Source: Acetatifactor sp. | Lineage (GTDB): Bacteria > Bacillota > Clostridia > Lachnospirales > Lachnospiraceae | Direction of reading: 5' to 3' | Assembly (NCBI GenBank): GCA_016290775.1 | Contig: JAEEVF010000004.1 | Span: 62,001-126,000, forward strand | DNA: 64,000 nucleotides | Part shown: piece after piece, positions 37,468 through 57,372 of the stretch | Layout of the letters: every line of letters begins with the position of its first letter | Position numbering within the stretch: position 1 is the stretch's first letter | Program-made: the position numbers and the translations under genes | The notes under the pieces: generated by a model | The model's database searches: none | What the model saw: only the letters and a program-made list of their open reading frames with translations | What the model was told of the DNA's origin: nothing

Positions 37468-38499
37468 TTATCTTTGTACTCTTCCGGAGGCATCTCCGCC
37501 TGCCAGGGTCTCCACTTCTTTGCGGGAAACCAGGTTGAAGTCGCCAGGGATCGTGTGCTTCAAAGCGGATGCCGCAACGCCAAACTCCAACGCCGACTTA
37601 AAGTCCTTTCCGTCAAGCATGCCGCAGATCACGCCGCCTGCGAAGGAATCGCCGCCGCCAACGCGGTCAACGATGGGATGAATGCTATATTCCTTAGAGT
37701 GGTAAAACTCCTTCGTGTCTCTGGAGTAGATGCATGCGGACCAGCCATTGTCGGAAGCCGAATGACTGACGCGCAGGGAGGAGATGCAGTATTCGAAGTT
37801 ATAGTCTGCAACCATCTGCTCAAAAATGGACTTGTAGCCTGCAAGCTCAAGATCGCCGCTGGTCACGTCGGTATTGCCGGGCTTATAGCCAAGCACAAGC
37901 TCCGCATCTTCTTCGTTGCCGATGCAAACGTCCACATACTTCATCAGATTCTTCATGACTCTCTGAGCCTTCTCGGAGGTCCAGAGCTTCTTTCTGAAGT
38001 TCAGGTCCACGGAAACCTTCACGCCTGCCTTCTTGGCTGCGATCAGAGCCTTCTCGGTCAACTCCGCTGCCGCGTCAGAAATGGCAGGAGTAATGCCGGT
38101 AAAGTGGAACCAGTCTGCATCCTTGAAAATGTCAGCAAAGTCGAAATCCGCCTCGGTTGCCGTGGAAATGGAGGAATGCGCTCTGTCGTAGATGACCTTG
38201 GAAGGTCTCATGGAGCTGCCGCTCTCAAGATAGTAGATGCCAAGTCTCTCACCGCATCTTGCAATATGCTTCGTGGAAACGTTGTACTTTCTGAGGGCCG
38301 CAACGGCACACTCACCGATCTCATTGTTCGGAACTGCGGTCACGAATTCTGCGTCATGGCCATAGTTTGCAAGGGAAACTGCAACGTTTGCCTCGCCTCC
38401 GCCATAGTTTACGTCAAACTCATCCGCCTGAATAAACTTCTCAAAATTCGGGGTGGACAGACGAAGCATGATCTCACCCATCGTAATTACCTTTGCCAT
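37468..38499 (-). CDS. kdgK: PfkB-type sugar kinase, likely 2-keto-3-deoxygluconate kinase
   Basis: NYGGGEANVAVSLANYG, VDRVGGGDSFAGGVICGM; next to KDPG aldolase. Confidence 0.88.
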   Translation of the reverse strand: MAKVITMGEIMLRLSTPNFEKFIQADEFDVNYGGGEANVAVSLANYGHDAEFVTAVPNNEIGECAVAALRKYNVSTKHIARCGERLGIYYLESGSSMRPSKVIYDRAHSSISTATEADFDFADIFKDADWFHFTGITPAISDAAAELTEKALIAAKKAGVKVSVDLNFRKKLWTSEKAQRVMKNLMKYVDVCIGNEEDAELVLGYKPGNTDVTSGDLELAGYKSIFEQMVADYNFEYCISSLRVSHSASDNGWSACIYSRDTKEFYHSKEYSIHPIVDRVGGGDSFAGGVICGMLDGKDFKSALEFGVAASALKHTIPGDFNLVSRKEVETLAGGDASGRVQR

Positions 38500-38539: not shown

Positions 38540-38719
38540 AACTCGGGGCATGGCCTCTGTATTCCCCCTCCGGGACGTTCGCACTCCGTAGGTGTACGTA
38601 GCGGATGCTAAGGCATCTCAAGTGCTGTTTCGCTTCGCGCAACATCCCTTGATACGCTGCCTAAGCACCGACGTGCACCTACGGCCCTGAGGGGGAACAA
38701 CAGAGGCCTCCCCTCGAGA
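38540..38719 (+). repeat. Structured quasi-palindromic repeat element, copy 1
   Basis: 48-nt block GGGACGTTCGCACTCCGTAGGTGTACGTAGCGGATGCTAAGGCATCTC, variable hairpin, 39-nt block GATACGCTGCCTAAGCACCGACGTGCACCTACGGCCCTG; outer arms GGCCTCTG/CAGAGGCC. Confidence 0.92.
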
Positions 38720-38856
38720 CACCGGAATGCTTTTGTTCTCGTCGCAATATGTGTTGCTATATGTGTTGTGACATATGTTGTTTGATATCGTCCTCTCTCA
38801 ATTCACATGGCGATGTTTCTTACAACATGAGGTCTTGTAAACCTAATTATCCTGTA

Positions 38857-39040
38857 AACTCGAGGGGAGGCACCTGCTGTTCCTTTTCAGGGCCGTAGGT
38901 GCACGTCGGTGCTTAGGCAGCGTATCACATAATGTCGAAGTCTTTTTTGAGACATTATGTGAGATGCCTTAGCATCCGCTACGTACACCTACGGAGTGCG
39001 AACGTCCCTGAGAAGGAATGCAGGGGCCATGCCCCGAGTT
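38857..39040 (-). repeat. Structured quasi-palindromic repeat element, copy 2 (inverted relative to copy 1)
   Basis: Same 48- and 39-nt blocks on the opposite strand; inner stem ACATAATGTC/GACATTATGT; outer arms CCTGC..TTCC/GGAA..GCAGG. Confidence 0.92.
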
Positions 39041-39081: not shown

Positions 39082-40041
39082 TTATTTCTGTACCAGGTGT
39101 ACCGCAAAGCCTGCGATGCTCTCCTTGAGGTAAATCGCCTTAAACTTCCCCTTCTCGTCGCGCTTGGGCTCTTCGAATTCCACGCCGAGGACGGTCTGCA
39201 TATAGTTGACGGCGCGCTCAATGTAATTCGTGCGGATCGCGATGTGGCCGTTGGCGCCCTTGAACGGCGACTTCATAACCTCTACGGCCGTTCCGGCAAA
39301 GATGGAACTATTGCCAACCTTTACAGGCATTCCAAAGAGGAACGCGAAGCGATTTGCAGCCTTCAGGGCCTCTTCCTCGTTTGCCGCATTGATGCCAACG
39401 TGTGCCAGCTCAAAGCCCAGCATGGTCTGAACGGCTTCGCGGGTCAGCTGCTCGATCTTGTCCCACTCACCTGCGTTGATCAGATCGCCGGGAACCATCC
39501 AGGATCCGCCGCATGCGATGATCTTGGAGAAATCCAGGTAAGAGGTCAGGTTCTTCGCATTGATGCCGCCGGTGGGCATGAACTTCATGTTCACGTAAGG
39601 TGCTGCCATCGCCTTGATCTTTGCAAGGCCGCCGCTCTGCTCTGCGGGGAAGAACTTTACCACCTCGAGGCCAAGCTCAATGGCCTGCTCAATGTCACTG
39701 GGACTGGACGTGCCGGGAGTGATGGGAACGCCCTTTTCCTGACAATACTTTACGGTCCTGGGATTCAGGCCGGGGCTTACGATAAACTTAGCGCCTGCCG
39801 CCACTGCCGCGTCTACCTGGGCTGCATTTAAGACCGTTCCTGCGCCAACGCACATGTTCGGAAACTTTTCCGTCATGATGCTGATCGCCTCAGCTGCCGC
39901 ATCCGTGCGGAAGGTCACTTCCGCGCAAGGAAGTCCGCCTGCGCACAATGCCTTTGCCAAGGGATATGCATCCTCCGCGCGATCGATCTTAACCACGGGT
40001 ACAATGCCGATTTTACTGATCTGTTCCAATATAGCTTCCAT
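39082..40041 (-). CDS. eda: Bifunctional KHG/KDPG aldolase with C-terminal VOC/glyoxalase-like domain
   Basis: GIVPVVKIDRAEDAYPLAKALCAGGLPCAEVTFRT, CVGAGTVL, FIVSPGLN, VKFFPAEQSGG, FMPTGGI; extra ~110 aa with HVGINAANEEEALKAANRFAFLFG...GHIAIRTNYIERAVNYMQTVLGVEFEE. Confidence 0.9.
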   Translation of the reverse strand: MEAILEQISKIGIVPVVKIDRAEDAYPLAKALCAGGLPCAEVTFRTDAAAEAISIMTEKFPNMCVGAGTVLNAAQVDAAVAAGAKFIVSPGLNPRTVKYCQEKGVPITPGTSSPSDIEQAIELGLEVVKFFPAEQSGGLAKIKAMAAPYVNMKFMPTGGINAKNLTSYLDFSKIIACGGSWMVPGDLINAGEWDKIEQLTREAVQTMLGFELAHVGINAANEEEALKAANRFAFLFGMPVKVGNSSIFAGTAVEVMKSPFKGANGHIAIRTNYIERAVNYMQTVLGVEFEEPKRDEKGKFKAIYLKESIAGFAVHLVQK

Positions 40042-54204: not shown

Positions 54205-55620
54205 TTATTCTCTGCCGTCCCAGCAGTAGGTACACAGCTTGCTCTCATCGATGCCGACGGACTTGACCATGTCGTCAAGTCTGTGGTAATGGAGCGTCGT
54301 GAAGTTCAGCTGTTTTCCGATGCGGGCCACCATGTCATTGTATTCCGTGGTGTTCGGGTCTACGTATTTCTTGAGGTCGATCTTTAAGCCTTCCTGCTCC
54401 ATGTCGCGCAGAACTCTTCTTGCGATCAGGTCCATTTCCGAAGTGGATCTGGAGAAGTTCAAGTACTTACAGCCAAACAGAAGCGGCGGGCATGCAGGAC
54501 GGATGTGCACTTCCTTTGCACCGCTCTGGTACAGGAACTCCGTCGTCTCGCGAAGCTGCGTGCCACGCACGATCGAGTCATCGATGAGAAGCAGGCTCTT
54601 GTCCTGGATCAGGTCATGCACGGGGATCAGCTTCATCTTTGCGATGAGGTTTCTCTGCGTCTGCATGGTCGGCATGAAGGATCTCGGCCAGGTCGGCGTG
54701 TACTTGATGAAAGGTCTTGAGAACGGGATTCCGGACTCGTTGGCATATCCGATCGCATGGGCGGTTCCGCTGTCAGGAACGCCCGCTACGATGTCAGGCT
54801 TTACGTGGTCTCTGCCTGCATCGCGCTTTGCAAGTGCCGCGCCGCAGTTGTAACGCATCTGCTCTACGCTGATGCCCTCGTAGGAGGAGGAAGGATAGCC
54901 ATAGTAGATCCACAGGAAGGTACATATCTTCATGTCCTTGCCGGGATTTACAAGGGTTCTTACTCCTTCAGGCGTCACAACGACGATCTCGCCGGGGCCA
55001 AGTTCCTTGCAATCCTCATAGCCGAGGTTCAGGTATGCGAAGCTTTCAAAGGATACGCAGTGTGCGTCCTTCTTTTTTCCGATAACGACGGGGGTCCTGC
55101 CGAGACGATCTCTTGCCGCATATAGGCCGATCGGGGTCAGGAGCATGATGCTCATGGAACCGTCGATGACTTCCTGAGCATATTTTATGCCTTCGACAAT
55201 GTTGTCCTTTTGGTTGATCAGTGCCGCAACAAGCTCGGTTGCGTTGATCTCGCCGCTGCTCATTTCCATAAAGTGGGAAAGGCCGTTGTCGAAGATTTTT
55301 TTGGTGAGCTCTTCCGTGTTATTGATCTTGCCGACGGTGGTGATGGCATAGGTGCCATGGTGGGATCTCATGAGGAGGGGCTGGGGCTCGTAATCGGAGA
55401 TGCATCCGATGCCGAGGTTGCCTTCCATGGAGTTTACGTCGTGATCAAATTTGGTACGAAAGGGTGCATTTTCAATGTTGTGGATCGCGCGGTCGAAGCC
55501 TTTCTTGCCGTAGACAACCATGCCTGCGCGGCGGGTGCCGAGGTGGGAATGGTAGTCAGTGCCGAAGAAAAGGTCGAAGGTGCAATCGTCTTTTGAGGCT
55601 ACGCCGAAGAAACCGCCCAT
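54205..55620 (-). CDS. purF: Amidophosphoribosyltransferase (PurF family)
   Basis: MGGFFGVASKDDCTFDLFFGTDYHSHLGTRRAGM, VAGVPDSGTAHAIGYANESGIPF, LLIDDSIVRGTQLRETTEFL. Confidence 0.95.
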   Translation of the reverse strand: MGGFFGVASKDDCTFDLFFGTDYHSHLGTRRAGMVVYGKKGFDRAIHNIENAPFRTKFDHDVNSMEGNLGIGCISDYEPQPLLMRSHHGTYAITTVGKINNTEELTKKIFDNGLSHFMEMSSGEINATELVAALINQKDNIVEGIKYAQEVIDGSMSIMLLTPIGLYAARDRLGRTPVVIGKKKDAHCVSFESFAYLNLGYEDCKELGPGEIVVVTPEGVRTLVNPGKDMKICTFLWIYYGYPSSSYEGISVEQMRYNCGAALAKRDAGRDHVKPDIVAGVPDSGTAHAIGYANESGIPFSRPFIKYTPTWPRSFMPTMQTQRNLIAKMKLIPVHDLIQDKSLLLIDDSIVRGTQLRETTEFLYQSGAKEVHIRPACPPLLFGCKYLNFSRSTSEMDLIARRVLRDMEQEGLKIDLKKYVDPNTTEYNDMVARIGKQLNFTTLHYHRLDDMVKSVGIDESKLCTYCWDGRE

Positions 55621-55664: not shown

Positions 55665-55844
55665 AACTCGGGGTGAGTTTGTGCAGCCCCTCTCAGGGAC
55701 GTTCGCACTCCGTAGGTGTACGTAGCGGATGCTAAGGCATCTCGTGTGTTGTCTCGCAGGGCTCGTCAACGCACGATACGCTGCCTAAGCACCGACGTGC
55801 ACCTACGGCCCTGCGAAGGGCTATCACAAACTTCCCCTCGGGTT
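55665..55844 (+). repeat. Structured quasi-palindromic repeat element, copy 3
   Basis: Identical 48- and 39-nt blocks; inner stem GTGTGTTG/CAACGCAC; outer arms GTTTGTG/CACAAAC. Confidence 0.92.
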
Positions 55845-55920: not shown

Positions 55921-57372
55921 TTAAACGTTTATCTCCGCTTTTACTCCAAGGAGATCTTTGTTGGCGTCTAGAATTGGACGAATGACGTTGTTGAGGAAGG
56001 CGTCGACTTGGAGAGGGCTGCGGCCGACGTAGCGGGCAGGGTCCATGCATTTCTGGAGGTCTTCCAGGGAGAGGCCGAAGGCAGGGTCTGCTGCAATGAG
56101 TTCGAGGAGGTTGTTGTCCTTGCCCTCGACTTTGACGTTGCGGCCGGCTTCCATGGAGAGCTCGCGGATGCGTTCGTGGAGTTCCTGGCGGTTGCCGCCG
56201 TTCTTTACGGCATCCATCATGATGTTCTCCGTTGCCATGAAGGGCAGCTCGCTGCGGAGGCGCTTCTCGATGACCTTGGGATATACCACAAGGCCGTCTA
56301 CCACGTTGAGGCAGAGGTCCAGGATGCCGTCCACTGCAAGGAAACCTTCAGGAATGGAAAGTCGCTTGTTTGCGGAGTCATCGAGGGTTCTCTCAAACCA
56401 CTGGGTTGCGGAGGTGATTGCGGGGTTCAGCGCGTCCACCATTACGTATCTGGAAAGGGATGCGATGCGCTCGCTCCTCATGGGGTTTCTCTTATATGCC
56501 ATCGCTGAAGAACCGATCTGGGTCTTCTCGAAGGGCTCTTCCACCTCCTTCAGGTGCTGCAAAAGGCGGATGTCATTGCTCATCTTGTGTGCGCTGGCCG
56601 CGATACCTGCAAGCACGTTTGCGACTCTGGTGTCCACCTTGCGGGAATAAGTCTGGCCTGACACGGGATAGCACTCCGCAAAGCCCATCTTTGCTGCGAT
56701 CATGGGATCGATCTTGTCGATGGTCTCCTGGTCTCCGTTGAAGAGCTCGAGGAAGGATGCCTGGGTACCGGTGGTTCCCTTGGAGCCAAGAAGCTTCATG
56801 GTGGAAAGCACGTGGTCAAGGTCCTCTAAGTCAAGCGAGAACTCCTGCAGCCAAAGGGTTGCCCTCTTACCTACGGTGGTAGGCTGTGCGGGCTGGAAGT
56901 GCGTGAAGGCCAGCGTCGGCTGTGCCTTATATTTGTCCGCAAAGTCAGCCAGCTCCTTCATCACGTTGATCAGCTTCTTGCGAACCAATTTCAAAGCTTC
57001 GGTCATCACGATGATGTCGGTATTGTCGCCAACGTAGCAGCTTGTGGCGCCAAGGTGAATGATGCCTGCTGCCTTAGGACACTGCTGCCCGTAGGCATAT
57101 ACGTGGCTCATCACGTCGTGGCGTACCACCTTTTCGCGTGCCTGTGCAACATCGTAGTTGATGTCCTCGGCATGTGCCTTCAGCTCATCGATCTGCTCCT
57201 GGGTGATGACGGGCTTTCCGTTCTGGGAAAGGCCAAGCTCCATCTCCGTCTCAGCAAGCGCGATCCAGAGTTTTCTCCATGTGCGGAACTTCATGTCAGG
57301 CGAAAAGATAAACTGCATCTCTTTGCTGGCATAACGCTCCGATAAAGGGCTTTGATATCTGTCAGTACTCAT
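55921..57372 (-). CDS. purB: Adenylosuccinate lyase
   Basis: IIHLGATSCYVGDNTDI, QIGSSAMAYKRNPMRSERI. Confidence 0.96.
   Translation of the reverse strand: MSTDRYQSPLSERYASKEMQFIFSPDMKFRTWRKLWIALAETEMELGLSQNGKPVITQEQIDELKAHAEDINYDVAQAREKVVRHDVMSHVYAYGQQCPKAAGIIHLGATSCYVGDNTDIIVMTEALKLVRKKLINVMKELADFADKYKAQPTLAFTHFQPAQPTTVGKRATLWLQEFSLDLEDLDHVLSTMKLLGSKGTTGTQASFLELFNGDQETIDKIDPMIAAKMGFAECYPVSGQTYSRKVDTRVANVLAGIAASAHKMSNDIRLLQHLKEVEEPFEKTQIGSSAMAYKRNPMRSERIASLSRYVMVDALNPAITSATQWFERTLDDSANKRLSIPEGFLAVDGILDLCLNVVDGLVVYPKVIEKRLRSELPFMATENIMMDAVKNGGNRQELHERIRELSMEAGRNVKVEGKDNNLLELIAADPAFGLSLEDLQKCMDPARYVGRSPLQVDAFLNNVIRPILDANKDLLGVKAEINV

Follow-up and report, generated by a model that had tools for sequence, protein, structure and literature searches.

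A Lachnospiraceae family of short mobile DNA elements with a conserved hairpin core and almost wobble-free covariation

Three copies of an element of about 180 bp in the window, by which we mean the whole 64,000-nucleotide stretch of DNA that was analysed, belong to a large Lachnospiraceae family of short mobile DNA elements that was previously unnamed and is new as a family. The elements are probably non-autonomous DNA transposons (MITEs) of Lachnospiraceae, which carry terminal inverted repeats (TIRs), fast-changing complementary arms and a conserved hairpin core. The best reading is a new MITE super-family around a conserved DNA hairpin module that is common to MITEs with different ends. 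Both the arms and the core are kept complementary by DNA-level rules and not by the wobble rules of RNA.

Results

Copies in the window and distribution of the family

A preliminary description of the window had reported the element at 38540-38719 (+), 38857-39040 (-) and 55665-55844 (+), and it is seen there as described. The 48-nt left block is identical in all three copies, and the other blocks reported as common to them are indeed identical. Copy 1 extends from ACTCGGGG to CCCCTCGAG (38541..38718, +) in the 5' region of a pfkB-type kinase gene (37468-38499, -), and its conserved core occupies 38567..38692 (+; 128.6 bits with the covariance model R1). Copy 2 (38858..39039, -; core at 38885..39013, -, 135.4 bits) is inverted relative to copy 1 within the same intergenic gap and adjoins a KDPG/KHG aldolase gene (39082-40041, -). 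Copy 3 (55666..55843, +; core at 55691..55816, +, 133.9 bits) follows a purB-like (adenylosuccinate-lyase-like) gene (55921-57372, -) and lies in the 5' region of an ORF (54205-55620, -) without a Pfam match, which we take to be purF-like. No transposase lies beside the window copies, as had been noted. An imperfect GTCGCAATATGTGTTGC palindrome at 38741-38772, between copies 1 and 2, is terminator-like by pattern only.

BLASTN against the genome of the window, a check proposed in the preliminary description, yielded more copies; the 48-nt block occurs elsewhere in this genome once exactly and once with three mismatches. Model R1 was built from 11 copies of the same genome, leaving out five pairs of the P4 stem at which a gap had been misplaced in the first alignment, and detected about 18 copies there. 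The element is not confined to this assembly, since R1 matched 40 of the 61 congeneric genomes, with up to 38 copies each. At the order level, nine of 196 genomes contained the element, all of the same family, Lachnospiraceae. A pattern scan of a species-representative collection gave at least 120 matches; among the matches listed, nearly all the named records came from Lachnospiraceae, and a few MAGs with odd names probably carry wrong labels. As for carriage by phages, a match was found in a single viral contig only. Rfam, at gathering and relaxed thresholds, gave no match to a described RNA family, and nothing specific to the element was found in the literature, in which coverage of subscription journals was mostly lacking. 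The initial view of a structured, undescribed, mobile repeat thus holds, the element being multicopy, dispersed and without an Rfam match.

With ORFs called heuristically and the element in the reader's orientation, the left gene runs toward it 61 times out of 99 (p=0.027). The element starts a median of 16 nt past the stop codon of the left gene, and the next gene begins a median of 45 nt further on. Facing pairs such as window copies 1 and 2 recur. No transposase or other gene recurred among the neighbours beyond common housekeeping genes. An intrinsic terminator, or an insertion that targets terminators, was rejected, as neither end has a T-run.

Anatomy of the element

The reported pairing of blocks, tips and outer arms is real, and the cores fold as single strands 5-9 sd below dinucleotide shuffles (z of -5 to -9 on either strand). 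In the reader's orientation, the terminal repeat is followed by an arm, a CAGGGA-type stem, the ACGCTCTCGCT loop, a long stem, an AG bulge, a CGG stem and TAAG..CTAAG with an A.A mismatch, and then by a variable tip or short loop. The conserved core of ~93-130 nt keeps several irregularities, namely the two-base bulge, a GNRA mini-hairpin and the A.A mismatch, which reads T.T on the opposite strand. The arms change fast yet remain complementary, and the terminal inverted repeats lie outside them.

The mini-hairpin, which the preliminary description had missed together with the outward long TIRs of the sister species and the stacked partial copies described below, is formed on the complement strand by the conserved loop ACGTTCGCACT. 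In the window it reads GT-GCGA-AC at 38577..38584 (-) in copy 1, at 38996..39003 (+) in copy 2 and at 55701..55708 (-, the complement strand) in copy 3. Among 202 distinct copies, the loop is GNRA on the complement in 194 (GAGA 64, GCGA 46, GAAA 44, GCAA 22, GGGA 12, GGAA 6), and the two-pair stem covaries (GC/GC 149, GT/AC 43, AT/AT 4, AC/GT 2). RNAalifold likewise predicts the mini-hairpin. With the motif there in 194 of the 202 copies, it is apparently the complement of the reader's strand that is structured. GNRA is equally an RNA loop. DNA, too, forms an exceptionally stable mini-hairpin when two G-C pairs close a GNNA loop (PMC4686876), so the motif names the strand and not the molecule.

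Full copies at five loci of G000 (L008, L010, L012, L014, L016) and at L119-L121 of G076 carry a stack of partial copies of the element at one end; the stacks are cut at varied points, the mini-hairpin loop included. At two pairs of orthologous sites, L066 and L139 (G085/G122) and L085 and L094 (G011/G018), the core was kept and both outer arms, or the tip, were fully replaced by another self-complementary sequence.

Covariation and the rules of pairing

Covarying stems had been proposed from the three window copies, and the larger samples bear this out. Of 36 pairs, 17 were changed on both sides in the first 11 copies; shuffles gave 7.4 and slid partners 2-6. A set of 106 copies from public genomes, with contigs chosen by sequence pattern and not by the model, had double-sided changes at 30 of 36 pairs (502 cells versus 140). 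Most stem positions covaried in the 202 distinct copies.

If RNA is selected, G-U on the functional strand is expected to exceed A-C. To keep the prediction from favouring one strand, the two mismatches were compared on pairs that had been predicted on each strand independently. G-T and A-C were found 35 and 34 times, respectively, in ~3,730 cells of the 202 copies (GT 14, AC 13 and WC 1877 in set A2; GT 21, AC 21 and WC 1702 in set A3). In contrast, RNase P RNA of the same genus gave GT 31 and AC 5 under identical treatment, and 253 versus 6 with its own-strand structure. The arms were also symmetric (GT 133 versus AC 121), and they were so in every direction of the neighbouring genes (75/75, 49/48, 25/37, 28/21); alignment noise, itself symmetric, enters the arm counts to some extent and matters far less for the core counts. 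One-sided intermediates between related copies amounted to 205 GT versus 198 AC when summed over identity bins. Since wobble is almost absent and strand-symmetric, unlike in RNase P RNA, the complementarity is held at the DNA level. G-U tolerance on the transcribed strand, which marks a structured ncRNA, was not found, and the suggestion that the repeat is a candidate ncRNA is left unsupported. The earlier caution that a choice between RNA and single-stranded DNA or a cruciform was inference had been right.

Symmetry alone does not tell whether a folded strand or cruciform is under selection or palindromes are corrected by mutation. For the core, the conserved irregularities speak for selection; the free arms could reflect either process. 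Strictly concerted changes of the arms were rejected, as one-sided intermediates are common between close copies.

Target duplications and a partner IS in sister species

When copies from the sister genomes G022 and G017 were aligned, a terminal inverted repeat became visible beyond the arms. This 16-bp TIR, TAGGTGATTGCGAAAC, has 61 matches in G017 and 29 in G022, compared with one each for a reversed-pattern control. The core-bearing elements of the sister genomes measure 205-227 bp, the core forming their interior, and coreless elements with the same TIRs measure 87-90, 98 and 141-143 bp. Target-site duplications (TSDs) of 12-13 bp accompany the sister-species elements: exact 12/12 duplications flank both L341, which has the core, and the coreless L336, the duplicated TTCCCCTATACT is present twice in L110, and the overall mean was 6.57 of 12 versus 4.85 in shuffles (0/1000). 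The L031 and L136 copies are paralogues with different flanks, and L132-L134, separate loci of G006, match one another at 99% identity over ~450 bp. Four coreless 141-143-bp MITEs of G017 (L338, L340, L344, L352) have the same ends around a different long hairpin, CAATATAGACAAAA..TTTTGTCTATATTG.

When DDE transposase loci were scanned for the TIR end, one was found in G016. The best NCBIfam model of this transposase, which has the domains DUF772 and DDE_Tnp_1, is IS1182 at 81 bits; since the cut-off of that model is 270 bits, we label it IS1182-like only. Full relatives of the transposase occur in G061 and G016, and L366 of G061 is a complete 1,769-bp IS with both TAGGTGATTGCGAAAC ends and a 13-bp TSD, ATTTTGTAGCCCC. 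The transposase is absent from G017 and G022 themselves at E<=1e-30, and the core was absent from the autonomous IS. In at least two sister species, G017 and G022, the core-bearing elements thus insert with TSDs of 12-13 bp and share their ends with the intact IS1182-like IS of G061, and because of these shared ends it was very probably a transposase of this kind that moved them in trans. The sister-genome copies are MITEs of an IS1182-like element; like the family at large, they are short, non-coding and dispersed in many copies. With MITE ends, target duplications and a matching IS in the sister genomes, the proposal of a mobile element holds.

Ends and mobility of the window sub-family

The copies of G000, G011 and G018 end in ACTCGGGG/CCCCGAGT, inverted repeats of ~8 bp. 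The CTCGGGG ends of this window sub-family gave no TSD signal (3.82 observed, 4.10 shuffled), and its true ends or its mechanism may differ from those of the sister-species elements. The own genome contains no relative of the IS1182-like transposase, and neither a target duplication nor a partner transposase, sought as IS1182-like only, was found for the window copies. Because of these two results, the window copies are assigned to MITEs provisionally, on the strength of their homologous core and their dispersal, not of target duplications. Empty sites in related strains, which the preliminary description had proposed to look for, were not seen between the ~92% identical genomes G085 and G122: every compared copy was shared at the same locus, and the one large indel inspected was unrelated. 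We infer that the window sub-family moves in a similar way with another transposase.

Discussion

The MITE reading suggests how such elements could spread. An IS1182-like transposase supplied in trans would mobilise the sister-species elements, and a different transposase would move the ACTCGGGG/CCCCGAGT sub-family similarly. The core, folded as a single strand or a cruciform, would be kept through recognition by a protein, the likeliest target being the strand that bears the GNRA mini-hairpin, and copying errors at the hairpin could give rise to partial tandem copies. Against this reading we count that the conservation of the core across families exceeds that of a usual MITE interior, that the IS lacks the core, that the IS1182-like transposase has no relative in the own genome and is missing from G017 and G022 at E<=1e-30, that the window ends show no TSD and that no empty site was seen. 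It is conceivable, though we suggest it only tentatively, that the core is a DNA hairpin module in its own right, living as a parasite or helper of MITEs. Recognition of its folded single strand by a host or transposition protein would then be the reason why it has entered, or been kept in, MITEs of several unrelated ISs across Lachnospiraceae.

A purely mutational origin, in which template switching and gene conversion correct the palindromes and the core is conserved by recent shared ancestry, would give covariation without selection. This would account for the arms of G076, which differ in sequence and are always complementary around identical cores, for the arms or tips replaced at orthologous sites, for the stacked partial copies and for the strand symmetry. 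The bulge, the A.A mismatch and the GNRA loop nevertheless persist family-wide although correction would erase them, and one-sided intermediates dominate between close copies, so that the changes are not simply single-step; we regard this origin as rather unlikely. Still less probable is a structured ncRNA on the complement, or a 3'-UTR RNA hairpin on the reader's strand, that is carried or spread by MITEs and acts in transcripts of neighbouring genes. Its complex conserved fold with a GNRA tetraloop, and the bias of left genes toward an element that begins shortly after their stop codons, speak for such an RNA, but wobble pairs are few and equally so on both strands, whatever the transcription context, a GNNA loop on two G-C pairs also makes an exceptionally stable mini-hairpin in DNA (PMC4686876), and a terminator T-run, a conserved neighbour gene and an Rfam match are all lacking. 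The position of the hairpins shortly behind genes, and their frequent arrangement in facing pairs such as window copies 1 and 2, also recall REP/BIME-like repeats moved by a Y1 (RAYT) transposase. Y1_Tnp, however, occurs in 19 of the 61 genomes, is missing from the element-richest ones (G017, G076, G081, G032, G079) and is present in several element-free ones. REPs have a GT(A/G)G head preceding a short imperfect palindrome (PMC2817692); the present elements lack such a head and are too long. We rejected this origin, which is highly improbable, the Y1 (HUH) transposase not being associated with the elements.

The MITE-type kind of element is already known; what is unusual here is a core shared by differently ended elements and a wobble-free covariation. 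BOX and RUP elements are likewise mobile palindromic repeats of 100-200 bp that lie between genes and are predicted to fold strongly. We know of no report of strand-symmetric covariation for these or for RU/ERIC. The enterobacterial RU/ERIC-type repeat units (PMC2759123) share the same size, intergenic location, palindromic form, mobility and folding. All three differ from the present family in host group, and the likeness is one of description. REP/BIME repeats with RAYT resemble it as intergenic hairpins near gene ends in facing pairs, whereas the Lachnospiraceae element has neither the GTAG head nor the Y1 association. The ISMac2-derived MITEs of Methanosarcina are MITEs of the IS1182 family (table in PMC3852290). 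Such MITEs are similarly short and non-coding, with IS1182-type terminal inverted repeats and several to many copies; here, in contrast, the interior consists of a conserved hairpin core that also occurs in elements of unrelated ends, and the partner transposase is IS1182-like only.

Strong covariation is commonly read as evidence for structured RNA. The present family has hundreds of strongly covarying copies, and yet the comparison of G-U with A-C mismatches shows DNA-level pairing. This comparison is a cheap test that separates DNA-hairpin repeats from RNAs in discovery screens. For Lachnospiraceae genomes, the family also defines a class of mobile hairpins, which frequently sit directly behind genes, and a candidate transposase.

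The TwoAYGGAY RNA (RF01731), listed as a probable RNA (PMC2864571), deserves the same test. Like the present family, it is a hairpin family of gut Clostridiales with unknown function, and it differs from the Lachnospiraceae core in sequence and fold. TwoAYGGAY may itself be a DNA-level mobile hairpin. It was found adjoining the hairpin core at L041 1248-1410 (-) and at L131-L134 of G006, a genome in which the two are copied together, the core and TwoAYGGAY being duplicated as a ~450-bp unit bounded by GGAAAGTTAGT/ACTAACTTTCC.
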